Positions 17,561 through 59,692 of a stretch of DNA of 64,000 bases are shown piece by piece (the first letter of the stretch is position 1; each line of letters opens with the position of its first letter). The notes under the pieces are model-generated. The model did not search any database. It was not told where the DNA came from and saw only the letters and a program-made list of their open reading frames with translations. Where the stretch lies: the IMG/VR virus record IMGVR_UViG_3300032334_002567, positions 62,001-126,000 of that record. One strand, 5' to 3'. The stretch comes from a virus. The position numbers were made by a program, and so were the translations under genes.

Positions 17561-18058
17561 ATGCAATTAGATTATTTTATTTTTGCTGGTGGTGCTGGAA
17601 AAGGATGGGTTGCATATTGTCCACATCAAAGAGTTGGAACATGTTCAAAAAAAATAACAATTTTAGGAAACTCGCAATTACTATCTAATTGTTCTGATTA
17701 TCTAATTTTACATTATAACGACAATATGAAATCAGTTTGTAAAAAATGCCCCCAATTTGCATTACACGCAAAAGGAAAATTGTATTCAAAAAAAGAAGAA
17801 ATATTCATTGAAAATGAAAACTATTTTTATATTGATAAAATAAAAAAAGAATATTTTATAAAAGTGGGAGGACAAGAAGAAGCAGATAGAAAATGGGTTA
17901 TAACTAATGGACAAAATGAAGTTCACACAATGGATAATATAAAAATTTTAAATAAATGTGAAACAGTAATAATAGATAGAAATTATAAAAACTCAATAAA
18001 AACAAAAGGGTTTTTTTATCAGAAATTAAAAACAATATCTCCTTTGATGGTTCTTTAA
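17561..18058 (+). CDS. Unknown Cys-containing protein, 165 aa
   Basis: Not recognised. The N-terminus FAGGAGKGWVAYCPH has a Gly-rich turn, and cysteines occur as CPHQRVGTC and CKKCP, which could bind a metal. The remainder is Lys-rich and very AT-rich. It lies between a methyltransferase and a glycosyltransferase, 7 bases before the latter. Confidence 0.5.
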   Translation: MQLDYFIFAGGAGKGWVAYCPHQRVGTCSKKITILGNSQLLSNCSDYLILHYNDNMKSVCKKCPQFALHAKGKLYSKKEEIFIENENYFYIDKIKKEYFIKVGGQEEADRKWVITNGQNEVHTMDNIKILNKCETVIIDRNYKNSIKTKGFFYQKLKTISPLMVL

Positions 18059-18065
18059 AGTTACT

Positions 18066-18785
18066 ATGATTTCATTTGTATTTTATTTTAGCAGCAAAAG
18101 ATTAGAAAATTTAGAACAGACATTAAGGTTTTTAGATAAAAACGAAGATTTAAAAAACAAAGAAGTAATTTTGGTTTGCAACGACAGTATAAACAAAGAC
18201 TTTAAAATTCCAAATTATAAAATATTTAATTTAAACCTTGATAGTTACATGAAACCAAAGATGTGTAATTTTGGTGTTGACAAATCAACATGCGACATCG
18301 TAGCATTATTAGACAGTGATAGAATATTGCCAAATAGATATTTTGAAAAAAATGCAAAAGAATTAAACAAAAAAGAATTTGTTTCAACTTTAGTTTTACA
18401 CAAATTGCTCGAAAATTATAGCGATAATGACATAGAATTAAATAATTATAAATATGTAGAAGAAATAAAGTCTAAAAGATTTAAATTTTTTAAAAAAAAC
18501 TTGTTCTCAGGAAATACCTTATTTCATAAAAGAGATTATTTAGATTCTGGTGGCATGGATGAAAGCTTTGTTGGATACGGATTTGCAGACAACGATATGA
18601 CTATTAATGTTATGTCAAAAAGATACACGGTCAGATGGAAAGATGATATTGAACTTCATTTAAATCATCCTATGGGATTTTTATATAAAAAAAAATCAAT
18701 AGAAGATACCTTGGAATTTAAAAAAATATCTAGGTCGAACTTGGATAGATTAAAAAACAAATGGAAATCTTATAGAATGTTATAA
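18066..18785 (+). CDS. Glycosyltransferase (GT2 with GT7C-like end)
   Basis: 239 residues. LLDSDRILP (about residue 77) is the DxD site; DSGGMDESFVGYGFADNDM (about 162-180) matches the galactosyltransferase C-terminal motif, where the W/F-G-x-E/D-D pattern binds the acceptor. This suggests transfer of Gal or GalNAc-like sugars, though the specificity is not fixed. The next gene starts one base after its stop. Confidence 0.7.
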   Translation: MISFVFYFSSKRLENLEQTLRFLDKNEDLKNKEVILVCNDSINKDFKIPNYKIFNLNLDSYMKPKMCNFGVDKSTCDIVALLDSDRILPNRYFEKNAKELNKKEFVSTLVLHKLLENYSDNDIELNNYKYVEEIKSKRFKFFKKNLFSGNTLFHKRDYLDSGGMDESFVGYGFADNDMTINVMSKRYTVRWKDDIELHLNHPMGFLYKKKSIEDTLEFKKISRSNLDRLKNKWKSYRML

Positions 18786-19631
18786 ATGAACACCTCTGAC
18801 TCCGAATATATAAAAAGTAGATCTATATCAATTATAATAACGAATGCTTGCAATTTATCGTGTGGAGGTTGCAATCAACTTTGTGGCCAATTTAGTAAAG
18901 AACAAATTTGGTTCATTAGTTTAGAAGACTTTGAAAAAAATGTAAACATAGCAAGAAAGCAAAGCAATTTAGTTGTTATTTTTGGAGGCGAACCTACTCT
19001 GCATCCAAAACTTAATGAAATATTAAATATTTGTTACAAATACGAAGACACTACATTTAGAGTTTATACTAACGGAAGAACAAATGTAGAAAACCATAAA
19101 AATATTATTTGGATAATTGATTATAAGAAAGAAGATAGTAAAATATACTTTTTACAAACTGGTTTAGCTCCTATAGACATAATCAAAGAACAAGATAAAA
19201 GTTATTATTTTAAACTTGCAAAAGAACATTGTATAATATGGAGATCAAAAACATGTCATCCTATGATCTATGATAACAAAGCTTATTTCTGTCAAAATGC
19301 CGGGGCTTTTGATAAAAAAACAAATGAAAATCATGGGTGGGAAATTGTTGACGGCAAAGATCCTTTTCTAAAAACAGACGAAGAAATAGCTGAACAGGCT
19401 AGTCATTTTTGTTATCGTTGTGGGTGGTGTCTCCCTAGAGAATTAAGAACAAAGTTGCCGGAGCAGTATTCTTGTGACCCATATATAGTAACAGAAACAA
19501 ATTTGAATCTAGTAAAAAAAAATAAATCAAACTGTTTGCAATTGTGCAAAACCTGCAAAAAGTTTTTAAACATTGATGAAATGAGTAAACAAACTTGTAA
19601 ATTGTGCCTCAAAAAAAATTTAAAATTATGA
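18786..19631 (+). CDS. Radical SAM enzyme with Cys-rich tail
   Basis: 281 residues. CNLSCGGC (Cys22, 26, 29) binds the 4Fe-4S cluster, and FGGEPT (about 62) helps bind SAM. A second Cys group (CHP, CQN, CYRCGWC, about 158-220) may hold an auxiliary cluster. The tail CKTCKKF...CKLC (about 258-276) looks like a zinc ribbon. It is shorter than the SPASM maturases and lies between a glycosyltransferase and a sulfotransferase, so a sugar or lipid substrate is as likely as a peptide. Confidence 0.7.
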   Translation: MNTSDSEYIKSRSISIIITNACNLSCGGCNQLCGQFSKEQIWFISLEDFEKNVNIARKQSNLVVIFGGEPTLHPKLNEILNICYKYEDTTFRVYTNGRTNVENHKNIIWIIDYKKEDSKIYFLQTGLAPIDIIKEQDKSYYFKLAKEHCIIWRSKTCHPMIYDNKAYFCQNAGAFDKKTNENHGWEIVDGKDPFLKTDEEIAEQASHFCYRCGWCLPRELRTKLPEQYSCDPYIVTETNLNLVKKNKSNCLQLCKTCKKFLNIDEMSKQTCKLCLKKNLKL

Positions 19632-20173: not shown

Positions 20174-20287
20174 GCATTGACTTTAAGCTATTTATCGCTA
20201 TATTAAATGGGGTAAATTGACTTTTTGTTGATTTCAACATGAAAAATGAAAACTATATATGTAAATGGTACTTACTAGGAGGCTTTT

Positions 20288-20461
20288 ATGAGCGAGAGCA
20301 ATAATTCTGAAGAAGATATTAAAAAAGGCGATGTCAAATCAAATCTTGAAGAAGATATTGAATTAGTTGTTGATCCCAAAAAAGAAAAAGAAAATGGCAA
20401 TAAAAGGAAAAATTACGGAACAAAGTTAGTAGATTCCGGTGGATGCCCCTTTCTTGCTTAG
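20288..20461 (+). CDS. RiPP precursor-like peptide, 57 aa
   Basis: Read directly from the sequence. A perfect AGGAGG precedes the ATG. Residues 1-40 are strongly charged and acidic at first (a typical leader), then Lys-rich; the last 16 are NYGTKLVDSGGCPFLA, a small core-like end with Gly-Gly and one Cys. It ends 59 bases before a SPASM radical SAM maturase, followed by a 2-oxoglutarate oxygenase. Precursor, leader and core are inferred from size, composition and position. TTGACT/TATATT-like promoter boxes lie at about 20177-20204. Confidence 0.6.
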   Translation: MSESNNSEEDIKKGDVKSNLEEDIELVVDPKKEKENGNKRKNYGTKLVDSGGCPFLA

Positions 20462-20520
20462 TTTTAAATCTTTTTATGGGTACACGGTTGCCAGCTAATT
20501 GACTTATTAGGAATACAAAA

Positions 20521-21981
20521 TTGAAAACTTCCATATACAACAAAATTGTTTCTTACAATGGGGATAGTCTGATTTATAATCAGGTAACTGGAGCTTTGCT
20601 TAAAGTTGGTAGCAAAGGACTAGGTAGAATAAAAAGTGTATTCGAAGGTGACTTTTCTGATGGTTCCCTAGTTGATAAATTGATAAATCTAGGGTACCTT
20701 GTTGAGAGTGATTCTGATGAGCGAACTGTATTAAGGGAGGTATACGAGAAAAAGTCTCAAAATCATCTTAGCAAGCACATGTACATTACGGTTACAGATA
20801 GGTGTAATCTAGGGTGTCATTATTGCTTTGAGGAAAAAAATCAATGGATAAAAATGTCTGTTGAAACTCAAGATGCTCTTATTCAATTTAGCAAAAAATT
20901 TATTAAAGAAACTCCAACGGAAAGTTTTGGTATTGGATGGTATGGCGGAGAGCCAACCATGCATATGCCTGCAATTGAAAGACTTTCTAGGTTTTATAAA
21001 GATTTTTGTGAAGAAAATTCAATTTTCTTTTATCAAATGATAATTACAAATGGAACTACTTTTACCGACTCTATTTGTGATAAGTTATTAGACTTAGGAA
21101 TTAAGAAAGCACAGGTCACTATTGATGGGTTCAAAGAAGATCACAACATAAGTAGACCATATTTAAAAGATCTTAAGTTGGAGGAAATGAGCGGAGCTCA
21201 AAGGAACCAAATCAAAAAGATAAACCCAAGTTTATTGTTGAATGTAATAGGCCAAGAAAAATCAGCACCTAGATCATCTTACGATGAAATAATTAGTGGA
21301 GTCGAAAAGTATGTTAATAAAGGTGGTGTTGTTTCTTTAAGAATGAACCTTAACGAAGAAACAATAAACCGAGTTAACTATCTGCTGGAAGACCTGTATG
21401 AAAGAAAATTGTTCGATAAGAACGAAAAGGGTGGATACCTTTATGCATACGCACAGCCTATATTCGATACCGGTGGTTGCGGAAATAGCGGAAATGGTAA
21501 TGGAGAGTCAAACTGTGGATCGTGTAAAATTTCATCAATGAAAATGAGTAGTTTTGCAAGAAGAATAGATGAAATCAAAAATTGGTATAAAGAAAAAGGA
21601 GTTACTTTTTTTGACCACACCGCAGAAATGAAGTTTACTGGAGAAACTTGTACTGCTAATAAAAAGTATGAGTATGTAATAAATCCAGACGGAACAATCA
21701 CAAAGTGTACTCACGAAGTAGGAAACCCAGAAAAAGTCATAGGCAGTGTTTTTGAAAATAATACTAATCCTGATCAAATGAAAGTTGGTAATAGTTACTT
21801 TGACAAATTCAATCCTTTTGATGACCAAGAGTGCTACAACTGTGAGGTGTTGCCAATTTGTATGGGAGGATGTAAAGCAAACAATAAGGTTGGAGAACAT
21901 AAACAATACGAAGCAGGATGCATATCCACCAGATATTCATTAACAGAGGATATTGTTAGGTTATATGAAAAAAATAAATAA
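20521..21981 (+). CDS. SPASM radical SAM peptide maturase 1
   Basis: 486 residues, TTG start. Radical SAM motif CNLGCHYC (Cys95, 99, 102), SAM-binding YGGEPT (about 141-146), and a C-terminal SPASM region with CTANKK, TKCTHE, QECYNC, PICMGGC and a last Cys, enough for two auxiliary 4Fe-4S clusters. The N-terminal 85 residues (YNQVTGALLKVG) may bind the leader of the substrate peptide. Such enzymes form C-C or C-S links or epimerise residues in RiPPs. Clearly paralogous to the enzyme at 44209-45687 (same DxKCNLGC, TIDGxKEDH and DDQEC blocks). Confidence 0.85.
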   Translation: MKTSIYNKIVSYNGDSLIYNQVTGALLKVGSKGLGRIKSVFEGDFSDGSLVDKLINLGYLVESDSDERTVLREVYEKKSQNHLSKHMYITVTDRCNLGCHYCFEEKNQWIKMSVETQDALIQFSKKFIKETPTESFGIGWYGGEPTMHMPAIERLSRFYKDFCEENSIFFYQMIITNGTTFTDSICDKLLDLGIKKAQVTIDGFKEDHNISRPYLKDLKLEEMSGAQRNQIKKINPSLLLNVIGQEKSAPRSSYDEIISGVEKYVNKGGVVSLRMNLNEETINRVNYLLEDLYERKLFDKNEKGGYLYAYAQPIFDTGGCGNSGNGNGESNCGSCKISSMKMSSFARRIDEIKNWYKEKGVTFFDHTAEMKFTGETCTANKKYEYVINPDGTITKCTHEVGNPEKVIGSVFENNTNPDQMKVGNSYFDKFNPFDDQECYNCEVLPICMGGCKANNKVGEHKQYEAGCISTRYSLTEDIVRLYEKNK

Positions 21982-22540
21982 TAAACTAAGTGTTATTATT
22001 GTTGAAAATTTTATATCAAAAGAATTTGTTGATGAATTACATTCTTGGATAATTAATGAAAAAGACAAATTAACCAAATGGAATAATGGATACTTTATAG
22101 GAGGATATAGATTCTTTAGCCCACAAGATAAATTTTGGGAAAAGGATGAATGCAATAGGTCCTTAAATGCTTTGGAAAATATACCTGAATGTTTTTTTGA
22201 ACTAAGACAAAAAATATCAGAAAATTTTGGATTTGAAAAAGAAATAATAAGAAAAAATGCAACAAGTTTAGCAGGGATAATTACAAATGGAGGATTTGTA
22301 TCATCACACAAAGACTCTGGCGTTTTTGATTGCGTACATCTTAGGGCAAATATAATGATAAAATGTCCTAAAGGTGGATCCCATCCAATAATAGAAAATA
22401 AAACTTATGAACTAGAATCAGGTAGTCTTATTGTTTTCCCCGCCGACCTTATGGAACATTCTACGACTGTACACAAAGCAGAAATCCCCAGAACCTTGAT
22501 TTCATACCCTTTCATAATGCCCAATCTATATTTTAATTAA
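21965..22540 (+). CDS. 2-oxoglutarate/Fe(II)-dependent oxygenase
   Basis: 191 residues from the ATG at 21965, 17 bases inside the maturase gene. The double-stranded beta-helix signature is complete: HKD (His115, Asp117), distal His165 in LMEHST, and Arg176 for the 2-oxoglutarate carboxylate. It resembles prolyl 4-hydroxylase-like enzymes, which hydroxylate amino-acid side chains. Overlap with the maturase suggests it acts on the same peptide. Confidence 0.7.
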   Translation: MKKINNKLSVIIVENFISKEFVDELHSWIINEKDKLTKWNNGYFIGGYRFFSPQDKFWEKDECNRSLNALENIPECFFELRQKISENFGFEKEIIRKNATSLAGIITNGGFVSSHKDSGVFDCVHLRANIMIKCPKGGSHPIIENKTYELESGSLIVFPADLMEHSTTVHKAEIPRTLISYPFIMPNLYFN

Positions 22541-23460: not shown

Positions 23461-23979
23461 ATGATTATTAAAAATTATATAAGTGAAGAAATAGTAAAAA
23501 TACTTCTAGATTATGCAATATTTTTATATGAACCAAAAAATGAAGTTGTCTTTATACCTTCAAGCGAATATAGAAGAAGAAAAACAATTTTTGATATTCC
23601 GAAAGAAATATATGAAATTAAAAATAAATTAATAAAAGATTTTAATATAGACTCAGACGAAACAAGCGACATATTTTTTAATGTATTGCAAAAAAATCAA
23701 AGGGTTGAAAGACACGCTCACAAAAAACATGAAAGGGGAAGTGATCTTAGATTCAATATAATGTTGCAGAATTCAGAAAAAGGAGGGATTCCAAAGTGTG
23801 AAGGAAAATGTTACTATCCAAAAAAAGGAGATCTTTGGATTTTCAATGGATGTAAAGACCATGAAACTGATTTGATACAAGGAGAAAAAACTCGCTACAT
23901 TATAAGTTATGGATTCATAACTCCAGAGATAACAGTAAATAAAATCTTAAACTTTGAAAAAAAGTCTTACTTATTATAA
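23461..23979 (+). CDS. 2-oxoglutarate/Fe(II)-like oxygenase, HxH variant
   Basis: 172 residues. RHAHKKHERG (His85, His87), GDLWIFNGCKDHET (His134) and KTRYIISYGF (Arg145) follow the order of a 2-oxoglutarate oxygenase, but the usual HxD is HxH, so the metal centre may differ or activity may be changed. It is divergent from the GT8-like gene and its end overlaps the convergent PaaK-like gene by 13 bases. Confidence 0.55.
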   Translation: MIIKNYISEEIVKILLDYAIFLYEPKNEVVFIPSSEYRRRKTIFDIPKEIYEIKNKLIKDFNIDSDETSDIFFNVLQKNQRVERHAHKKHERGSDLRFNIMLQNSEKGGIPKCEGKCYYPKKGDLWIFNGCKDHETDLIQGEKTRYIISYGFITPEITVNKILNFEKKSYLL

Positions 23980-25271
23980 TTAGGGCTACGATTATTCCTT
24001 AAAAAGTCCGACTCAACAGAAAGACTTTTTGATCTTCTATGCTCTTTGGAAATCAAATCACCTATAGGAGTTTTTATAATGTTTATTTTTTTACAATCTT
24101 TATCGCCCCAGATTATGAAATTACAAAAAGAAATTATTCTTTCTTTTTGATCATGAGTAAGATCATTATCAGAATCATAATAAAAGTCTATTTCTAAATC
24201 AATTCTTTGTCTAATTCTGTATGTGAAATTTTTATCAAAATCAATTCCTTTAATATCATAATTTTTGCCTAGTCTAAAGAAGCCAGAAAGTTTTTCTGAA
24301 ATAAGTCGTCCTGGTATATATTTTTCTTTACCTTCTTCGTTTACATAAATAGATTCTATTATTTTACCTTCAAAAAATTTAAAATAATTGCCTGAAATCC
24401 CACAGTCACATTCAATTTGTCCTATTTTGCCTCTATCTCCATTTATGTAGTTTATAAAAGGACATGCTAAATTATTTAAATCTGTAACAGATAGTATGTC
24501 ATTTTCTAACTGTTGTACCACACAAAGTTCGTCATATATATGTTTTATTTTATAGGGACATTCAAACCAACCAAGGCACCCATCCCAACATACCATTTTG
24601 TCAATAACTTTGTTGAACATTGACTCTGCAATTTTTTTTACTTGACTATTGAGAGTCTCTTCACTAGACATTAAAGAACAATTAAATTTTACTGAATCTC
24701 CTAAAAAATAGTATATAGTTTCTATAATTGAAGGCGAGGCTCTTATAAATTTAATATCTATGTTATCTAATAATTCTAGACTAAGTTGCCATTCTTTTTT
24801 ATTGAAACTCTGATCAAAAAATAATTCATAAACATCATTTTCATATCCTACATTTTCATATTTTTTTGGACCAATTAATTTAAATTTTTTGTCTGGACCC
24901 ATTCTAGGTGACAATGATATCCAAACTACATTTCCGGGTTGAGTTATTTGGTGAGATTTTTGTATTTTCCAGATATGATGCCTGTCAATTATTTCTTGTT
25001 CTGGTTGTGAATAATGATACCCACGGTCAGATGTTATAGAAGTTGTTCCCGATCTTAAAAGCTTTATATTTTTTACATTCTTTTTAAGTGGGAAGACATT
25101 TGTATGATGACTTAATTCTTCTTTTCTTTTAATGTCATGAACATATAATATATAACTTAGTCTATTTTTTTGGTACCTATCAACATCCTCCAGACTTTTA
25201 AAAAAAGTCTTTTCTCTATTTTTTATCCAAGAACTATTTGAAGAAAAGTAAGAAACTTTATCTCTAATCAT
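23967..25271 (-). CDS. PaaK-like adenylate-forming enzyme 1
   Basis: 434 residues. RSGTTS (about 73-78) fits the ATP-binding P-loop of PaaK/CapK-type AMP ligases; DLNNLACPFINYINGD and ECDCG near residue 290 match the later catalytic and Cys-rich loops. Shared blocks such as HHIWK and FECPxKxxHxYDxL show it is a paralog of the proteins at 45684-46928 and 58454-59692. Family members activate a carboxylate as acyl-AMP and pass it to CoA, a carrier protein or an amine. Its start overlaps the upstream methyltransferase stop (ATGA). Confidence 0.6.
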   Translation of the reverse strand: MIRDKVSYFSSNSSWIKNREKTFFKSLEDVDRYQKNRLSYILYVHDIKRKEELSHHTNVFPLKKNVKNIKLLRSGTTSITSDRGYHYSQPEQEIIDRHHIWKIQKSHQITQPGNVVWISLSPRMGPDKKFKLIGPKKYENVGYENDVYELFFDQSFNKKEWQLSLELLDNIDIKFIRASPSIIETIYYFLGDSVKFNCSLMSSEETLNSQVKKIAESMFNKVIDKMVCWDGCLGWFECPYKIKHIYDELCVVQQLENDILSVTDLNNLACPFINYINGDRGKIGQIECDCGISGNYFKFFEGKIIESIYVNEEGKEKYIPGRLISEKLSGFFRLGKNYDIKGIDFDKNFTYRIRQRIDLEIDFYYDSDNDLTHDQKERIISFCNFIIWGDKDCKKINIIKTPIGDLISKEHRRSKSLSVESDFLRNNRSPNYNK

Positions 25272-25939
25272 TTAATTAGAAAAATTCCATTTGGGAAATT
25301 CGTCTCTAATTGATAGTTCATTTCAAAAATATTTAAGCCTGCACTTCTGACCGCAGAAAAATATTCTTCTTTTGTAAAACAACAGATATCTATTTTACAC
25401 TTATATTCTTTGTTTTCTACTCTATAAGTTTTATCCAGTGTTGCTATATTTTCTTTAATTGTATTTTTAGATTCAACCCATACATTATCTGATATAAATC
25501 TATTTGCTGTTCTAGGTGTGTATTGATTCAAAAATAACCAAGGTTCAATTAGTATTATTCCTGATTCTTTTAAATGATTTTTTAGATTTTTAATTGTTTC
25601 ACAAAGTTGTTGGTAGTTTTCTAAGTGTGCTATTGAACCGAACAAACAGGTTATAACGTCAAATTTTTTATTTAGTTTAAAACTCTTCATATCAAGACAA
25701 TATGACTCTATTTGTTTGTTTTTGGTAATTTCTATTAGCTTTTCATTGATGTCAATGCCAACACACTTGTATTTATCTTTAAGATAAAATAAGTGAGATC
25801 CGCTACCACAGGCAACATCAAGTAAATCTATATGGTTACTTGTTGTATTTTCGCCTATTATTTTGGAAATTATTTCTGATTCTTTTAGATAATTTTTATC
25901 TTGATGAATGACATCGTATATTTCTTCTATTCCATACAT
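25268..25939 (-). CDS. SAM methyltransferase, sugar N-methyltransferase-like
   Basis: 223 residues. YDVIHQDKNYLKES at the start and LLDVACGSGSHLFYL (motif I, about 39-53) resemble the DesVI/TylM1-type enzymes that N-methylate amino sugars. ITCLFGSIAHL fits the next motif. It is coupled to PaaK-like enzyme 1 by overlap, which hints at joint action on one small molecule or sugar; inference only. Confidence 0.6.
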   Translation of the reverse strand: MYGIEEIYDVIHQDKNYLKESEIISKIIGENTTSNHIDLLDVACGSGSHLFYLKDKYKCVGIDINEKLIEITKNKQIESYCLDMKSFKLNKKFDVITCLFGSIAHLENYQQLCETIKNLKNHLKESGIILIEPWLFLNQYTPRTANRFISDNVWVESKNTIKENIATLDKTYRVENKEYKCKIDICCFTKEEYFSAVRSAGLNIFEMNYQLETNFPNGIFLIK

Positions 25940-26643: not shown

Positions 26644-27246
26644 ATGATAAGTTATTTTGAAATTAATTCTAATTGTAGCTTTGAGAAAAAACCAATTTTT
26701 GTAAGAATACAAAAAGTTACAGAAGAATCCGTCCAGATTTTAGAGAGAGCAATATCAGAATGCTATCAATCAAAACAAACTGTGTTGCCTATAGTAATAG
26801 ATTCAAATGGAGGATGTGCCTACTGTTTATTGGCTATTTTTGAAATGATAAAGAATTCTAAAATAACAATAGCAACAGTAGTAGAGTCTAAGGCAATGTC
26901 TTGTGGAGCTATTTTGTTTTCTTGTGGTCACAAGGGCCACAGGTATATTGGTGAAAACGCAACATTAATGATCCACGATATCAGAACAAGCTACAACGGA
27001 AAAGTTGATGATATAAAGGCAGATGCAACAGAAGCCGATAGATTGAATGATCTTCTTTATGGAATAATGGCTAGTAATTGTGAAAAAGAAAAGGACTATT
27101 TTAAAAAATTAGTTCATGAAAATTCACATGCAGATCTATATTTAGACTCAAAAAAATGTTTAGAACATAATTTAGCTGATAACATCGGCATACCAGTTTT
27201 AAAGGCAAAAGTACAAGTTGAATATCAGTTATGTCAAATCCAATAA
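26644..27246 (+). CDS. ClpP-type serine protease
   Basis: 200 residues. IDSNGG (about 52-57) is the oxyanion region, KAMSCGAILFSCG holds Ser86 at the ClpP nucleophile site, MIHDI gives His111, and DLYLD the likely Asp, so the triad looks complete. The residue after the nucleophile is Cys. ClpP-type proteases serve in phages as prohead proteases; here the gene sits inside the glycan/RiPP island, so a role in trimming a leader peptide is also possible. It overlaps the next glycosyltransferase by 16 bases. Confidence 0.75.
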   Translation: MISYFEINSNCSFEKKPIFVRIQKVTEESVQILERAISECYQSKQTVLPIVIDSNGGCAYCLLAIFEMIKNSKITIATVVESKAMSCGAILFSCGHKGHRYIGENATLMIHDIRTSYNGKVDDIKADATEADRLNDLLYGIMASNCEKEKDYFKKLVHENSHADLYLDSKKCLEHNLADNIGIPVLKAKVQVEYQLCQIQ

Positions 27247-27964: not shown

Positions 27965-28681
27965 ATGTTGATTAATTATACTAAAAAATATGTTTTATAC
28001 CACGTGCCAAAAACTGGCGGTTTGTCTTTATTTTTTAAGTTGGTTGAAGAAGCAACAACAAAAGAAGAAACAATAAAGGGATTTCATGGTGTTAAAAATG
28101 GTGTAGATCTTTGTCATTTGGGGTACTTAGAATCATTTATTTATTTAGATGACGACCTTAATAGTTATAAAAAATATATTGTTGTAAGGAACCCTTATGA
28201 TAGGTTGTTTTCTTCTTTTATATATATAATTTCAAATTCTTATGTTAAGGAAGAGCTAATGGGCGGAAGCTTCCTTGACTATAGTCTGTCGGCAGAAGAC
28301 TTTAGAAGATTTGTTTTATCTTTAGACTATGAGCATTTAATGGACTATGGTTTTGTTCACATAAGACCACAGCACTTATTTACGCACATAGCAAACACAC
28401 AGAAAATAGAAAATATTATAAAGTATGTTAACTACGATAGAGACTTAACCGTTTTCTTAGAACATAATGGATATAGTTTAAATTTAGATCATATAAATGA
28501 GTCAAAAATAAACTTTAAAGAAAAAAATTTTTTTATAAGAGATTATAATTGCCCCAATACTAAGGAAATTTATAAATATATTAAGTTTTATGATCAAGAT
28601 ATGATATGTAAGGTTAATAAATTGTATGAAAAAGATTTCTTATTTTATGGCTATAAAAAGATTTTATGTAATATATTTTAA
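27965..28681 (+). CDS. Sulfotransferase (Sulfotransfer_2-like)
   Basis: 238 residues. YHVPKTGGLSLFF (about 12-24) is the 5'-phosphosulfate loop (P-K-T-G/A) and VVRNPYDRLFSSF (about 77-89) the 3'-phosphate motif with R-N-P and S. These are the PAPS-binding elements of carbohydrate sulfotransferases. The 3' end overlaps the convergent UDP-galactopyranose mutase gene by 18 bases, and the Galf product may be part of its acceptor. Confidence 0.75.
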   Translation: MLINYTKKYVLYHVPKTGGLSLFFKLVEEATTKEETIKGFHGVKNGVDLCHLGYLESFIYLDDDLNSYKKYIVVRNPYDRLFSSFIYIISNSYVKEELMGGSFLDYSLSAEDFRRFVLSLDYEHLMDYGFVHIRPQHLFTHIANTQKIENIIKYVNYDRDLTVFLEHNGYSLNLDHINESKINFKEKNFFIRDYNCPNTKEIYKYIKFYDQDMICKVNKLYEKDFLFYGYKKILCNIF

Positions 28682-39927: not shown

Positions 39928-40617
39928 CTATCTATTTCTTTTTTGTTTCTTTATTCTTTTAAGAAGTTCATTAGTATTTAAGTGGGTTCTCTTTATGCCT
40001 TGTCTCATAGTTCTTCTAGCAACTAAAGGAGAATCAGGACACAGGTCAGGATAAGGAACTTTTGTTTTGCTCACTTGAACGCACACGCAGCAAGGGTCCG
40101 TGCTTGAGACGCTTAAGCTCATGCCACTAATAGAGGCCGATCCACAATCTCCGACGCTTCCAGATAATACGCCTCTTACGGTGCCGGTGCCACATATTTC
40201 GCCACCTTCTGTAAAGCAACATCCATCTGTCGTCCAAGTTGCTGAAACTGATCCTCCACTCACAGGAACAGAACATACAGTTAACATGTGAACTTCATCT
40301 TCTGTGTATTCGTTCTGTTCTTGCTCAATAAAATTTCCATCTTCGTCTACTCTAAAAACAAACTCTCTAGCAACTATAGGTTTATTAAATTTAGGAAAGT
40401 CTCCTAATTGATACTCTGGTTGCTCCATTGAATGTAAATTTGTTTGGTTTGGCTCGTATATGTCTATGTTGGAATAATTGGGTGCAAAACTTGCTTGATA
40501 CTCGCACGCCCAAACTTCTGTGATGCTTGTATAGCATTTTTTAGGGCATAAGCATTTACATGTACACCCGCACCACTCTGCATTGCGACCATTTGGAAAA
40601 GGAGGCTGGCAACCCAT
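39928..40617 (-). CDS. Cys-rich beta protein, 229 aa
   Basis: About 20 cysteines, including WCGCTCKCLCPKKC near the start and a block with GCC, GEICG, GDCG and PCCVCV (about 130-185) between Ser/Gly/Thr-rich beta strands. The last 30 residues are basic. This is unusual for a cytoplasmic protein; it could bind metals or be a disulfide-stabilised virion or surface protein. No family recognised. It starts 3 bases after the stop of the small Cys protein upstream. Confidence 0.6.
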   Translation of the reverse strand: MGCQPPFPNGRNAEWCGCTCKCLCPKKCYTSITEVWACEYQASFAPNYSNIDIYEPNQTNLHSMEQPEYQLGDFPKFNKPIVAREFVFRVDEDGNFIEQEQNEYTEDEVHMLTVCSVPVSGGSVSATWTTDGCCFTEGGEICGTGTVRGVLSGSVGDCGSASISGMSLSVSSTDPCCVCVQVSKTKVPYPDLCPDSPLVARRTMRQGIKRTHLNTNELLKRIKKQKRNR

Positions 40618-41976: not shown

Positions 41977-42465
41977 ATGGTTATTTTTTTAAATGTTTTG
42001 TATAGTTTCTTTATTGTCTTCTTCTTTATATTCGCTTTATTTTGGTCTAACTGTAAACACAGAATAATGGGAAAAATTTTGAACTTTACAGTAAAACCAT
42101 GTGTTTATTTTGGTTTTGCACACTCATGGTCAGTTTTTGCAAACCCTTGGCAGAATAATAAAAATCTACTTATGAATATAGAGTATGATAATGATGAAAA
42201 AGAGACAATAAACCTTTTTAACTATGAAACTATGTTATTTATTGATAGAAAATCAAATACCTATGATGAAAAATATGTAGAAAATCTACTTTCTTGTACT
42301 GAAGCACGGGTCGATTTTGCTCATTATATAAAAGATTTTATTGAACAAACAGAAAACAAAAAAGTAAAAAAAATAGACTTAATAGAAGAATTCAAAGAAA
42401 TAAAACTTTGGGATTCTTCTGATAGTCCTAGTAATTTTATTTTATTATCATCTCATAATCTTTAG
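41977..42465 (+). CDS. Membrane protein, possible HTTM partner
   Basis: 162 residues. One strong transmembrane segment (about 3-25, FLNVLYSFFIVFFFIFALFW), then a soluble part with AHSWSVFANPW, similar in kind to the W-x-x-F-x-x-P segment of small proteins that sit beside HTTM proteins in bacteria. The HTTM gene follows 28 bases later. Function unknown; the pairing is inference. Confidence 0.5.
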   Translation: MVIFLNVLYSFFIVFFFIFALFWSNCKHRIMGKILNFTVKPCVYFGFAHSWSVFANPWQNNKNLLMNIEYDNDEKETINLFNYETMLFIDRKSNTYDEKYVENLLSCTEARVDFAHYIKDFIEQTENKKVKKIDLIEEFKEIKLWDSSDSPSNFILLSSHNL

Positions 42466-42493: not shown

Positions 42494-43396
42494 TTGTTTA
42501 CCATTAAAGATTTTTTAATTTGTTGGAATGGTTTATTTTTCAACCAAATTAATTATCCATCTTTGGGTGTCTTCAGAATATTAATTGGGATGATATGTTT
42601 GTGTAAAATTTTTTTATCACTAAAAAACCGCTATGAATATTTTGGGGTAAAAGGTATCTTCCCATACGGATCATGGAAAAACCAAAAAAACAAAAGTATT
42701 TGCTTTTCTGTTTTTCATTATTTAAAGCCAAGTGATTTTAGCGTTGATTTAGTTTTATTTTTTAGCATAATTTTTTCTTTATTTTTGACAATAGGGTTTT
42801 GCACTAATTTATCATGTTTTATGACTTATTGCTTGTTTTTGAGTTTAAATAACAGAAACAACTATATCTGGAATGCTGGAGATTGCTTGTTAAGAATAAT
42901 TTTAGTTCTAATGATATTTTCTGGTTGTGATTGCTATATCTCTGTTGACAATATTATTTATGGTAGAAAACAGTTAGAAACGTGCATCAGTCCATGGGTT
43001 GTTCGTCTAATGCAGATTCTTTTGTTAAATGTATATTTTCATGCCGTTTATAGTAAATTACATGAAGGGGAAGTTTGGATTAAAGGAACAGGTGTTTATT
43101 ATTCACTAAGTAATAGAATGGTCGCCAGATATAATTTAGCTCCATATGTGAATAAATATATATTTTTAATTTTGAATTATTTTGCTCTTATATCACAATC
43201 TTTTTTTGCTTTGGGTCTAATTTTTAAAGAAACATCAACAATTTGTGCATTCACTTTAATTTTTATGCATCTATCTTTTGAATTTTTATTGAGAATTAAT
43301 CTTTTTGGAAGTATAGTGGCTGCATGTCTGGTATTATTTTTAAACAATGACATCATGGTGGAAATATTGACACTCTTTACTATGCAGGGTTACTGA
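42494..43396 (+). CDS. HTTM membrane protein (vitamin K carboxylase-related)
   Basis: 300 residues with about seven hydrophobic segments. SLGVFRILIGMICLCK (about 23), LNNRNNYIWNAGDCLLRIIL (about 117) and AVYSKLHEGEVWIKGTGVYY (about 185) follow the HTTM domain pattern shared with vitamin K-dependent gamma-carboxylase. Start is TTG, set by GGAGG 8 bases before. Gamma-carboxylases modify Glu in peptides, and HTTM proteins often occur beside peptide-maturation genes. Activity on the peptide next door is a hypothesis. Confidence 0.7.
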   Translation: MFTIKDFLICWNGLFFNQINYPSLGVFRILIGMICLCKIFLSLKNRYEYFGVKGIFPYGSWKNQKNKSICFSVFHYLKPSDFSVDLVLFFSIIFSLFLTIGFCTNLSCFMTYCLFLSLNNRNNYIWNAGDCLLRIILVLMIFSGCDCYISVDNIIYGRKQLETCISPWVVRLMQILLLNVYFHAVYSKLHEGEVWIKGTGVYYSLSNRMVARYNLAPYVNKYIFLILNYFALISQSFFALGLIFKETSTICAFTLIFMHLSFEFLLRINLFGSIVAACLVLFLNNDIMVEILTLFTMQGY

Positions 43397-43564: not shown

Positions 43565-44179
43565 ATGAAAGTAATTGACAAAATAAGCAGCCTTCGTATT
43601 TTTGGTTTTCGCATCTTTGTTAATCCTAAAAAAAATAAAAACAAAGGTAGAGTTCTTATAAAATCTAAATTTGGTTTACCTACTTTTAGAGTTTGTGGTG
43701 TAGTACTTGTAGATACTGGCACTACTGGCGGCACCAATGCGGGCGTCAGTACCTCCAACGCCGCCAATTCACTCGCTAACACTAACGCCTCCAATGCCAC
43801 AATGCCGGCGCAGGCAGGAGGTTTTGCACAGTCTGGGGTCCAAGCTACACAGACATACTCGCAGGCCTTCAGGAGGTCCGATGAGGTAACAGACATATAC
43901 CTTAAAGAGAATGAAGACGCAAAAGATTTGATTTCTAGTCTTAATGGTATTGTATCAATTAGATCCGGCGTAGCAAATGATCGACACGAAGTTATCTGTG
44001 TTACCTATAATAATTTTTTAGACTTAAATATGTTAATGAAAATATATTCATTCACATCAGGCGATAAAAAAATATTTGCTCAAAATTCAAAACAAAAAGA
44101 GAAATATTTAAATATTTTGAATTCTAAAAATATTTCTTCCACAGACATAGACATTGTTGATTTGATTTCTTTCGAATAA
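43565..44179 (+). CDS. Protein with G/A/S/T/N-rich core, maturase cassette 2
   Basis: 204 residues. A basic start (RIFGFRIFVNPKKNKNKG) leads to RVCGVVLVDTGTTGGTN, then about 45 residues made almost only of Gly, Ala, Ser, Thr and Asn (about 52-98), then a normal acidic C-terminal part. The stretch 43720-43880 is much richer in GC than its surroundings. The LVDTGTTGG run echoes LVDSGG in the precursor-like peptide at 20288. It may be the substrate, or a carrier of the substrate, of the SPASM enzyme 29 bases downstream; not proven. Confidence 0.6.
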   Translation: MKVIDKISSLRIFGFRIFVNPKKNKNKGRVLIKSKFGLPTFRVCGVVLVDTGTTGGTNAGVSTSNAANSLANTNASNATMPAQAGGFAQSGVQATQTYSQAFRRSDEVTDIYLKENEDAKDLISSLNGIVSIRSGVANDRHEVICVTYNNFLDLNMLMKIYSFTSGDKKIFAQNSKQKEKYLNILNSKNISSTDIDIVDLISFE

Positions 44180-44208
44180 TATTCATTTTTGAGAAAAAAG
44201 TTTTGTTT

Positions 44209-45687
44209 ATGTTTAATTTATTTAGCAGTCTCAACAAAGAGAAACTCTCTAAGTTTAATGTAATTATTGAAAACAAAGATGGTTACGTTTTCTATAATCA
44301 ATTAAGTGGATCACTAATTTTATTTGGGCAAGAAGAATTCAATCAATATAGAAAAATTTTAAAAAATAATTTTTTTGTTGATTCCAATTTTCTCAATACA
44401 CTTAGAGAAAACAAATTTTTAATTAGTGAGTCTTTTGATGAAATAGAATACATGCGAGAAAAGTACAATGAAAAGAAACGTGAGGCACACCATAAACAAA
44501 TAACTATTGTCCCCACAGATAAGTGTAATTTAGGGTGCTATTATTGTTATGAAGATAAAAATCAATGGAAGAATATGCCAGAAGATGTAGTTCAACAAAC
44601 CAAAAAGTTTGTTGAACTTTTCTTGAAATCTTCTCCTACCAAATCTTTTAGCGTTGTTTGGTTTGGAGGCGAACCAACTTTAAACTTATCTTGCATAGAA
44701 GAATTGAACTCTCACTTCAAAATAATTTGCGATAATAACGAAATCAAATATGACCAACTTATGGTTACTAATGGAACTAATATAAATGAAAAAGTTGTTG
44801 AAAGACTTTCTAGAATAGGAATCAGAGACTACCAAGTAACTATAGATGGATACAAAGAAGATCATGACAAGAGCAGACCATTTTTATCTGATCTTTCTAT
44901 TGAAGAAATGAGTGATGTTCAAATTGAACAAAGAAAGAAAATAAATCCTAATTTTGGAAAATTTTTAAATATCCTTGATCAGCCAACGGTTCAAAAAAAG
45001 AAAAAATCAACCTATGATGAAATTATAAACAATATGCAAATCATGCATAAAAATGGTTTTAAAATATCTTTAAGATGCAACATTAGTTCATCTAATATTA
45101 AAAATCATCATAAACTTTTAAATCATTTAGAAGAACTAGGTTTAACTAAAGAAAATGAGTGTGGAGGACTTGTCGAACCATACGTCGCTCAGATTTTTAA
45201 TCACGCAGGCAATGAAAATTTAAGAGACTTAACAAGAGAAGAATTTTCTGATTTTGAAATGCAGGTAAAAATTAAACACTGCGGTTCAACGCCTGCTACT
45301 GCAAATTTGACTCATTTTGGTGGCGAGAGTTGTACAGCTAATAAACAATTTTCTTTCTGCATCTCACAATCTGGAAAATTAACTAAATGTTGGCATCATG
45401 TTTCTAATGAAAAGTATGTAATAGGAGATGTGTTTGATCTAGACTTAGCAAAAAATGGTTTTGTTGATGATTATTCGCCATTTGACGATCAAGAGTGTTT
45501 GACTTGTTCTGTTCTTCCAACTTGTTTAGGCGGCTGTAAAGAAGGTAATAAATATTACGAAAAAGACTATGAAGAAAAAAACTACCATGGATGTGGTACT
45601 GTTAGATGGAACATAAGATCTAGAGTGAATGCTTTATATGAAAGTGTAAAAAATGAACAGATAAAACAAGAAATTAGTATGAATTAA
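44209..45687 (+). CDS. SPASM radical SAM peptide maturase 2
   Basis: 492 residues from ATG 44209 (a TTG two codons earlier is possible). CNLGCYYC (Cys106, 110, 113), WFGGEPT, and a SPASM end with SCTANKQF, TKCWHH, QECLTC, PTCLGGC and GCG. The N-terminus FYNQLSGSLILFG matches that of maturase 1, likely the substrate-leader recognition part. Same family and same motif order as 20521-21981 throughout, so the two arose by duplication. It lies downstream of a strong promoter and overlaps the convergent PaaK-like gene by 4 bases. Confidence 0.85.
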   Translation: MFNLFSSLNKEKLSKFNVIIENKDGYVFYNQLSGSLILFGQEEFNQYRKILKNNFFVDSNFLNTLRENKFLISESFDEIEYMREKYNEKKREAHHKQITIVPTDKCNLGCYYCYEDKNQWKNMPEDVVQQTKKFVELFLKSSPTKSFSVVWFGGEPTLNLSCIEELNSHFKIICDNNEIKYDQLMVTNGTNINEKVVERLSRIGIRDYQVTIDGYKEDHDKSRPFLSDLSIEEMSDVQIEQRKKINPNFGKFLNILDQPTVQKKKKSTYDEIINNMQIMHKNGFKISLRCNISSSNIKNHHKLLNHLEELGLTKENECGGLVEPYVAQIFNHAGNENLRDLTREEFSDFEMQVKIKHCGSTPATANLTHFGGESCTANKQFSFCISQSGKLTKCWHHVSNEKYVIGDVFDLDLAKNGFVDDYSPFDDQECLTCSVLPTCLGGCKEGNKYYEKDYEEKNYHGCGTVRWNIRSRVNALYESVKNEQIKQEISMN

Positions 45688-46928
45688 TCTTCTACATAAG
45701 ATCGCAAAGAAATCATTTTGTTTCTATGTAGTTTGTTATTTTCTGTTTTAAATTTAATGTACAAGTTGCAATCAAAAGAATTAAAAATTATTTTATTGTC
45801 AGCTAATATACTTAATTTATTTCCATCGTCCATAATAATATTGTTCATCATATTGGCTATTAAAATAACATCCTCGTTAGAAAGTTTATTTTTAACTGAA
45901 AACTCTATGCTTTTATCTTTATTTTGAATTATTTTATATTCTAATAACTCGGATTTTATAGAGCTGAGTGCATTTGAAATATAATTAGAAGAATATTTTT
46001 TTCCATTTACAGAAACAATATGTTCAAAAAATTTCCCTTCAAATTCAATTAATGTGTTTCCAAAAATTCCACAATTGCATTTTGTTTGTTTTATTTTTGC
46101 TATGTCATCAGATTGTTTTTCTGTGAAATTACTTTTATGGAGATCAAATAAACCGGGCTCCAATGGCTCAGGAATTGTATTACAGTAATTAAAAAAATCT
46201 GTGCAGTGAATTTTATTTGACTCTTTTAAAGATACTAGGCATAGATCATCATATAAGTGTCTAGTTTTGAAAGGACATTCAAAGAAACCAAATCCAGTAG
46301 TCCAATCTCTCATTTTGTCTATAACTTCGCCAAAAAACAATTCTGATTTTTTTCTTATTGGATCTGTAAGCATTTCACAGCTAAAGATTACAGGAAAATT
46401 AAATTGTTTAATTTCTTTATGAAAAGATGAAAATACAGAAGGGGATGTGTATAGAAAAACAGGATTTAGTTCATTAATTTTATTCAATATTTTTTTCCAA
46501 AATTTTTCATCTGCTTTGTAGGGCTCGTATATCAAGTTCCAGCAATCATTCATTAGCCCAACAGATGACATTTTAATAGGACCAATAAAATTGTTAGTAG
46601 AATTTGTACTGGTTCCTTGAAAGATTCGAACAACGTTTCCTGCGTTTATTTTGTGTGAGTTCATAATACGCCAAATATGGTGATTTTCAATTAAATCGTA
46701 AAATTTATTAGGAAATCTATAGTTTTTTGCAATATTGCTTGTTGTTCCCGAACTCAGCATCCATTTTGGTTCATATTGTTGTTTATTGTTTAGTAGTTTT
46801 TTTAAATAATACTTTTGATACGAGTCTAATTCTGACTTATTTTTGAATAAAGTTAAGTGTTTATGCTCCTCCCAGCTTTTTAGATTATCGAATATTTCCC
46901 GAACTGGTTGCTGTTTGTACTTTATCAT
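45684..46928 (-). CDS. PaaK-like adenylate-forming enzyme 2
   Basis: 414 residues from the ATG at 46928. SSGTTS (about 60-65) is the ATP loop; NHHIWRIMNSHKI, GFFECPFKTRHLYDDLCLV and KCNCG align with the other two copies. It is next to maturase 2 just as copy 1 lies near maturase 1. PaaK relatives activate aryl or acyl acids; here the partner could be the acyl carrier protein at 60660 or a peptide. No ribosome site of the usual kind. Confidence 0.6.
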   Translation of the reverse strand: MIKYKQQPVREIFDNLKSWEEHKHLTLFKNKSELDSYQKYYLKKLLNNKQQYEPKWMLSSGTTSNIAKNYRFPNKFYDLIENHHIWRIMNSHKINAGNVVRIFQGTSTNSTNNFIGPIKMSSVGLMNDCWNLIYEPYKADEKFWKKILNKINELNPVFLYTSPSVFSSFHKEIKQFNFPVIFSCEMLTDPIRKKSELFFGEVIDKMRDWTTGFGFFECPFKTRHLYDDLCLVSLKESNKIHCTDFFNYCNTIPEPLEPGLFDLHKSNFTEKQSDDIAKIKQTKCNCGIFGNTLIEFEGKFFEHIVSVNGKKYSSNYISNALSSIKSELLEYKIIQNKDKSIEFSVKNKLSNEDVILIANMMNNIIMDDGNKLSILADNKIIFNSFDCNLYIKFKTENNKLHRNKMISLRSYVED

Positions 46929-46953
46929 AAGAATCTTGTGCAAAGCTTAAAAA

Positions 46954-58449: not shown

Positions 58450-58453
58450 TGTG

Positions 58454-59692
58454 ATGACTGAAATTAACTTTTTAAAAGAAGAATTTCCAAGCCACTTGTC
58501 ACTTCTTGAGAATTACTCTTATTTCTCAAAAAATCTTTTATATGAAGAAGAAGATTTTGTTAGACAAGTTATTTGTAAGCTGAAAAGCAATATAGAAGAT
58601 TGGGCTATAAAAAATAGTAAAATATATACAGATCTCCACAGCCTAAATAGAATTTTCACTAAAGATGATTTTCAAGATAAAAAACTTTGGTATGTAAATT
58701 CTTTAGAAAAAGAAATCTCTCACTTTTCTACCAGTGGTAGCACTACTGGCGATCCTTTTAGCTATATTATATGGAATAAATTTCTAACTTTTTTGCGAGA
58801 TGAAAATCATTGGAAACTTATTCTAGAAGAATTTGATTTATATGACAGCAACAGACCTTTACAGGTTTGTATTCTTTATTATTTTAAAAACACAACAGAA
58901 GTTTTTAGATCATCAGATATACTAGTTTCAATAAATCATAATGTATCAAAATTTAATCAACATTATAATCATTCTGCTAAGGATTATAATGTTCATTTTT
59001 TTAATCTTTCTAGATACAATAGTGATCAAGACCTTTGGCATGAAAAAGTTTTGAGGTATTTAGAAGATAATGAAATGGATGTTATCATTACTACTGGTCC
59101 TATATTAAATACAATTTGTCACTATATTAGAAAACTTGGGTTCAATAAAAAAATATGTAAACTACTAAGTCATTCTAATGAATTTCCTTTAAAAGAAGAT
59201 TTCTCATTTTTAAAAGAAAACAGAAACATAGATTACTATTGCGATCACATGCGTTGCTGGGATGGCGGAGCAACTTTCTTTACTTGTAAGCATGAAACTT
59301 ATCATCTATTAGATAATTTAACTTATTGTGAAGAAAAAGAAGGCAAGCTAGTCAGCACAGATTTTTTTTCTTTCCCTGCTCCGTTTGTTAATTATTGGAA
59401 TGGAGATTTGTGTTCGATTTCTGACGAATACAAAAGATGTGAATGCGGTAGACTTTATAGACCATTCAAAATGCTACAGAATCGTCCTTTTGCCTTAAAA
59501 GGAACTACAAGACTAAAAGATATAAAAGAACAAATAGGATCTTTGTGTTTTAAGGGGGATATTACACAAGTTAAATTCGATAATTTGAATGTTGATATTA
59601 TTTCTAAAAGAACTTTAATAGAAGAAGAAAAAGAAAAACTATCAAGTATATTGCATGAATATAAAATAAATTATATAGATTATAGTTCTTGA
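58454..59692 (+). CDS. PaaK-like adenylate-forming enzyme 3
   Basis: 412 residues. STSGSTTGDPFSY (about 94-106) is the best ATP loop of the three copies, close to the S-G-T-T-G of PaaK. HMRCWDGGATFFTCKHETYH, PAPFVNYWNGD and RCECGRLYRP match PaaK-type late motifs and the two paralogs. A GTG one codon earlier is possible. It is followed within 1 kb by the acyl carrier protein gene, which would suit a ligase that loads an acyl group on a carrier. Confidence 0.65.
   Translation: MTEINFLKEEFPSHLSLLENYSYFSKNLLYEEEDFVRQVICKLKSNIEDWAIKNSKIYTDLHSLNRIFTKDDFQDKKLWYVNSLEKEISHFSTSGSTTGDPFSYIIWNKFLTFLRDENHWKLILEEFDLYDSNRPLQVCILYYFKNTTEVFRSSDILVSINHNVSKFNQHYNHSAKDYNVHFFNLSRYNSDQDLWHEKVLRYLEDNEMDVIITTGPILNTICHYIRKLGFNKKICKLLSHSNEFPLKEDFSFLKENRNIDYYCDHMRCWDGGATFFTCKHETYHLLDNLTYCEEKEGKLVSTDFFSFPAPFVNYWNGDLCSISDEYKRCECGRLYRPFKMLQNRPFALKGTTRLKDIKEQIGSLCFKGDITQVKFDNLNVDIISKRTLIEEEKEKLSSILHEYKINYIDYSS

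Follow-up and report, generated by a model that had tools for sequence, protein, structure and literature searches.

RiPP clusters have been described in cellular genomes and in prophages, sublancin in SPbeta being one example. A locus in a long virus record raises the question whether a phage can itself make and modify a peptide of this kind. The locus lies in a window of 64,000 nucleotides, bases 62001-126000 of a 381,443-base virus record, and positions given below refer to this window unless stated otherwise. An earlier note on the window had described a 57-aa peptide gene with a ribosome site, a full-length SPASM radical SAM enzyme and an overlapping 2-oxoglutarate (2OG) oxygenase gene, and had proposed that the phage makes and modifies a peptide, perhaps a toxin, a signal or a virion component. 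All of these features were recovered in our analysis, and modification of the peptide by the phage is strongly implied, as far as sequence comparison can tell, by a module of six genes to which they belong. The note had missed three genes of this module (23967-25271 and 25268-25939, both on the minus strand, and 26644-27246 on the plus strand), together with another oxygenase-like gene (23461-23979, +) and a further SPASM gene (44203-45687, +).

The proposed precursor peptide and its maturase

The peptide gene (20288-20461, +) codes for 57 amino acids, MSESNNSEEDIKKGDVKSNLEEDIELVVDPKKEKENGNKRKNYGTKLVDSGGCPFLA, and is preceded by the Shine-Dalgarno sequence AGGAGG (20277-20282, +), separated from the ATG by a 5-nt spacer. 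Its product has the acidic leader-like part and the GGC-containing end that had been described: the leader carries IELVVDPKKE, and the C-terminal end is KLVDSGGCPFLA, in which the codons of VDSGGC (20429-20446, +) include that of the only cysteine. Homologous peptides occupy the equivalent place, directly upstream of the SPASM enzyme, in both other records found to encode a closely related enzyme, a viral contig (L003) and a contig from a bacterial bin (L004); they end in GIEVVVEPNEEEEGKQHTGFKIVDAGGCPPFNVA and SIELIIDPKKEEKEQTFYNGKLVDAGGCGGLEA, respectively. This is the co-occurrence that the earlier note had suggested looking for, and whose absence it had named as grounds for rejecting its proposal. 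Two blocks are kept in all three peptides, one resembling IEL..DPKKE and the other, K(L/I)VD(A/S)GGC, located near the end. The spacers are variable, the tails following the core differ (PFLA, GGLEA and PPFNVA), and total length ranges from 57 to 81 aa across the three phage or virus-like loci. Pairwise local alignments of the peptides reach z values of 8.8-11.7 over shuffles, none of 2000 shuffles attained the score for any pair, and the precursor was recovered by profile in all three loci. The conservation of the peptide beside the maturase exceeds chance. By alignment of the three peptides, VD[A/S]GGC is the probable modification site.

No family match was obtained for the precursor, and a search of the phage collection with it returned nothing; judged by its sequence, it is a new family. 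The confirmation step of the rescan with the precursor alignment missed even the known L003 peptide. Two further DNA-pattern matches to K-x-VDAGGC were dismissed as chance, because stop codons lay immediately upstream or the surroundings contained no module genes. A terminator or riboswitch in the gap separating the precursor and enzyme genes was also considered and rejected, as neither a terminator-like site nor an Rfam match was found there. The intergenic fold in the window is weak (-5.3 kcal/mol), and a hairpin of -22.1 kcal/mol in L004 is without counterpart in L003.

The enzyme encoded next (20521-21981, +) is identified by its sequence, domain models and homologues as a radical SAM/SPASM peptide maturase of 486 aa. 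It starts with TTG, a choice backed by relatives that have ATG at the homologous site. It is full-length, as had been claimed: the CX3CX2C motif (C95, C99, C102) is accompanied by all seven SPASM cysteines in canonical spacing (C377, G391-x4-C396, C438x2C441x5C447x3C451 and C467), these radical SAM and SPASM cysteines do not vary among the four phage enzymes and two bacterial relatives, and the SPASM domain model TIGR04085 scores 50.4 bits against a cut-off of 27. The N-terminal region is collinear with peptide-maturase models from the first residues on. The closest curated families are all peptide maturases (TIGR04463, Clo7bot, geopeptide, CefB, PapB and SCIFF), and the best solved relative is 5wgg, which we take to be CteB. 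Only the general radical SAM and SPASM domain models reached their cut-offs; no maturase family model did. TIGR04463, the nearest family (E 1.8e-56 for the window enzyme), gave the phage enzymes 191.8, 188.6 and 227.7 bits, below its cut-off of 525, and the PapB model gave the window enzyme 86 bits against 340. In comparison with bacterial enzymes of the TIGR04463 type, the phage enzymes have an insert of about 35 residues after the SRP motif. A DxGGC loop in the enzyme was considered as a mimic of the precursor core; bacterial maturases also have Cys there, and the loop is more likely a cluster-ligand region.

Probable tailoring genes and the shared module

The gene 21953-22540 (+), which overlaps the maturase gene and has its likelier start at ATG 21965, has no Pfam match. 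Its assignment as a 2OG/Fe(II) oxygenase, already made in the earlier note, is upheld by the HxD...H...R motif (H114-x-D116, H164 and R175), invariant in three homologues, and by a predicted prolyl-4-hydroxylase-like fold (Foldseek against P4H/PHD2, E 4e-6, probability 1.00). A diverged gene at 23461-23979 (+), 25% identical to it, is also 2OG-oxygenase-like; L003 and L004 have one oxygenase gene apiece, compared with two in the window. The following gene, 23967-25271 (-), probably codes for a PaaK-type adenylate-forming (ANL) enzyme. Its SGTTS motif is invariant, and it matches the profile of 9s3l, a phenylacetate-CoA ligase (E 3e-4), and by Foldseek 4r1l, the BT_0428 acyl-CoA ligase (E 3e-9, TM 0.21, from a low-confidence model with pLDDT 61.5). 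No match to it was found in Pfam or in the phage collection. It overlaps by 4 nt with a class I SAM methyltransferase gene (25268-25939, -). The last gene, 26644-27246 (+), encodes a ClpP-type serine protease and candidate leader peptidase (PF00574, 81.1 bits against 20.2), whose catalytic Ser and His align with those of ClpP. It is 56% identical to the L004 copy and 48% to the L003 copy, compared with 25-32% to other phage ClpPs found.

Relatives of some of these genes occur elsewhere in the record. A second ClpP-type gene (record positions 323621-324151), 43% identical to the cassette copy, has no SPASM gene nearby. Two more PaaK-type adenylases (58451-59692, and one at record base about 54 kb, L024:7737-8951), 44% identical to each other, are likewise away from any SPASM gene, and the phage has four such enzymes altogether.

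Relatives were sought with a two-sequence profile of the maturase and its own paralogue; a search of viral contigs with the single enzyme sequence gave no match. The profile found one viral contig, L003 (157,792 bases, enzyme 47% identical), and one contig binned in a Neisseriaceae metagenome-assembled genome, L004 (enzyme 62% identical). Two bacterial or archaeal sequences from the same search, L005 and L006, are only 22-26% identical and were placed outside the enzyme group. The L003 record has matches to a T4-type Gp23 capsid protein and a terminase, together with a phage-type ribonucleotide reductase and an SbcC-like nuclease. L004, which encodes a Dda-like helicase, is probably a phage contig that was mis-binned.

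Six families are common to the window, L003 and L004: the precursor, the SPASM enzyme, the 2OG oxygenase, the PaaK-type adenylase, the methyltransferase and the ClpP-type protease. In each case the six genes lie within 5-7 kb (about 5 kb in L003), and they are arranged in a different order and on different strands from one locus to the next. All window ORFs were compared with all those of L004 and of the final 33 kb of the L003 record. Apart from module paralogues and embedded out-of-frame ORFs, this gave just two further matches, a glycosyltransferase and a small ORF, each confined to L004. The former is of family 2/7-type (18066-18785, +; 37% identical). The latter, a 165-aa protein (17561-18058, +), weakly matches a small ORF beside ClpP in L004 (E 4e-5). 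Because almost nothing else matches, general synteny does not explain the conservation, and the genes appear to travel as a unit; the six-gene cassette thus seems to behave as a portable module. Rescans with alignments of the four enzymes, the adenylase, the precursor, ClpP and the oxygenase found the module in L003 alone among the viral contigs, and the flanks of other phage ClpPs contained no other module genes. The module is known from three examples, in collections scanned by short conserved patterns, so that rarer or distant relatives may be missed.

A second SPASM locus and the genomic setting

The second SPASM radical SAM enzyme (44203-45687, +) is 36% identical to the first. Downstream of its gene lies a second PaaK-type adenylase (45684-46943, -), 32% identical to the first, and just upstream lies an ORF of 204 aa (43565-44179, +) with the sequence FVNPKKNKNKG...VLVDTG. 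By multiple alignment this ORF resembles the precursor motifs, a similarity not significant by shuffles, and we regard it as a candidate second precursor; the phage collection contained no match to it. Its middle (about 43700-43880) has a G+C content of 0.5-0.6, compared with 0.15-0.37 at the ends, as if a segment had been inserted. Further upstream are an HTTM-domain membrane protein (42494-43396, +; PF05090, E 2.7e-16) and a 162-aa protein with a hydrophobic N-terminus (41977-42465), an arrangement reminiscent of SdpA/SdpB. An Sdp-type toxin system composed of the 162-aa, HTTM and 204-aa proteins was considered and rejected, as no NCBIfam model matched.

The window's record contains phage replication genes (a UvsX-like recombinase, a phage single-strand binding protein and a DnaB-like helicase) and a terminase match. 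No phage-integrase match was found in this record or in that of L003, and the carrier phages are apparently non-integrating. The ABC-exporter membrane domain (ABC_membrane) was also without a match in either long record; for this reason the product probably acts within the infected cell or leaves it at lysis.

Several other features of the record were observed. A third radical SAM protein (281 aa, 18786-19631), without SPASM match, stands in a run with a glycosyltransferase and a sulfotransferase-like gene. Cysteine-rich proteins are encoded at 39928-40617 (229 aa) and elsewhere in the record (190 aa, L024:7168-7740), the latter adjoining an adenylase. Near record base 322.5 kb, G+C drops from 0.50-0.61 (in the region read, 316500-322500) to about 0.33, which marks either an acquired island or a chimeric assembly join.

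Proposed pathway, rival readings and known systems

In the window, L003 and L004 alike, the gene of a short precursor is kept next to that of a peptide-modifying enzyme. This arrangement is most readily understood as part of a phage-encoded radical-SAM RiPP module with its own tailoring genes, and we consider this reading very probable. We infer the pathway, from docking and chemistry to step order and leader cleavage, as follows. The leader block IEL..DPKKE would dock on an RRE-like N-terminal region of the SPASM enzyme, which would then modify the core K(L/I)VD(A/S)GGC. The single Cys might become joined by a thioether to the Asp four residues before it (D-X3-C). The oxygenase would hydroxylate and the methyltransferase methylate the product, the adenylase may activate a core or tail carboxylate for ligation, and leader removal would fall to the ClpP-type protease. 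The thioether is our first guess because Cys-containing peptides are the substrates of the nearest families, and because ACGAD repeats occur together with a 2OG oxygenase in the closest bacterial cluster examined; nevertheless it is a guess that we would sooner doubt than expect to hold, since D-X3-C reverses the C-X3-D of PapB.

The presence of an adenylase that may activate a carboxylate, and of a ClpP-type protease that could destroy the remainder of the peptide, would also suit a scaffold for a small molecule or cofactor, comparable to PqqA for PQQ or to TglA-type carriers, into which the residues of VD[A/S]GGC are incorporated. The shortness of the conserved core (six residues) and the variability of the tails agree with this; yet no partner of the PqqB/C/F, mycofactocin or PEARL type was recognised among the cassette genes, and the enzyme stands closer to thioether-type peptide maturases than to PqqE or MftC, so that we regard a scaffold as unlikely. 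Still less probable is a pathway decorating surface or virion glycans, with the peptide as adaptor. Sulfotransferase-like ORFs begin at 19604 and 27965, the glycosyltransferase at 18066 and GLF (UDP-galactopyranose mutase) at 28664, and L004 also has an epimerase and a glycosyltransferase beside the module. However, the six genes stand together in L003 with no glycosyltransferase or sulfotransferase seen among them, and SPASM enzymes of the CteB/PapB type, with an N-terminus as here, act on peptides.

Large phages gather auxiliary genes, and adenylase and ClpP paralogues are found elsewhere in the window's record; the cassette could then be a coincidence of unrelated genes in a hot spot, the peptide being a small phage protein of some other use. 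Against this speak the adjacency of the same six families in three sequences, with order and strand differing, and the conservation of the precursor at the z values given above, which together make coincidence very improbable. The paralogues do weigh against the RiPP-module reading itself: ClpP may have other roles, the record's second copy being one without a SPASM gene, and adenylase paralogues that also lack a SPASM gene indicate that the adenylase family has other uses.

If the RiPP-module reading is taken further, lytic phages of different lineages would share a mobile, virus-borne pathway and make a new class of peptides as their own weapon or signal, a view that is plausible but falls short of probable. 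The product, derived by thioether or adenylate chemistry from a single VD[A/S]GGC core and carrying hydroxyl and methyl groups, would be freed with the burst or turned on the host or on rival phages, and the second SPASM locus would provide a second product of the same virus.

Known systems resemble parts of the module. TIGR04463 (rSAM_vs_C_rich), with the "Cys-every-fifth" system CefA-CefB, is the nearest by maturase, but its substrates are Cys-rich and repeated, in contrast to the single Cys of the window precursor. The closest bacterial setting examined, a TIGR04463 cluster on Methylomagnum ishizawai plasmid pRS11DPr1, shares an Asp/Cys/Gly/Ala-rich substrate and a downstream 2OG-Fe(II) oxygenase. 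That substrate, by annotation, is a protein of 679 aa with many ACGAD repeats, whereas those of the phages are 57-81 aa long with one VD[A/S]GGC; the cluster also has an extra radical SAM C-methyltransferase, and in the part inspected neither an adenylase nor a ClpP is annotated. Clo7bot Cys-rich peptides of Paraclostridium have the second-nearest maturase family and short peptides upstream of the enzyme, but their bacterial cluster contains many Cys-rich peptides and ABC transporters, and the phage has neither. Ranthipeptides (PapA/PapB freyrasin, SCIFF/CteB) share a SPASM maturase with an N-terminal leader-binding region. They also share the three residues between Cys and an acidic residue, PapB joining Cys to Asp in C-X3-D and tolerating other spacings (PMC9413430). 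Their substrates contain CX3D/E, whereas in the phage peptide Asp precedes a single Cys.

Large T4-like marine viral genomes contain many radical SAM genes and ClpP; the portion of that account considered here discusses the radical SAM genes as Fe-S-related auxiliary genes and describes no precursor peptide or RiPP module (PMC5332604). Searches of the open-access literature turned up no description of a radical-SAM RiPP module in a phage. What the three loci appear to contain is a viral RiPP cluster whose precursor family is new and whose set of tailoring enzymes is new and unusual. As the substrate is short and synthesisable and a single enzyme can be tried first, the question is directly testable. 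If the reading is true, viruses themselves would produce elaborate natural products, by means of a portable six-gene module in apparently non-integrating phages.
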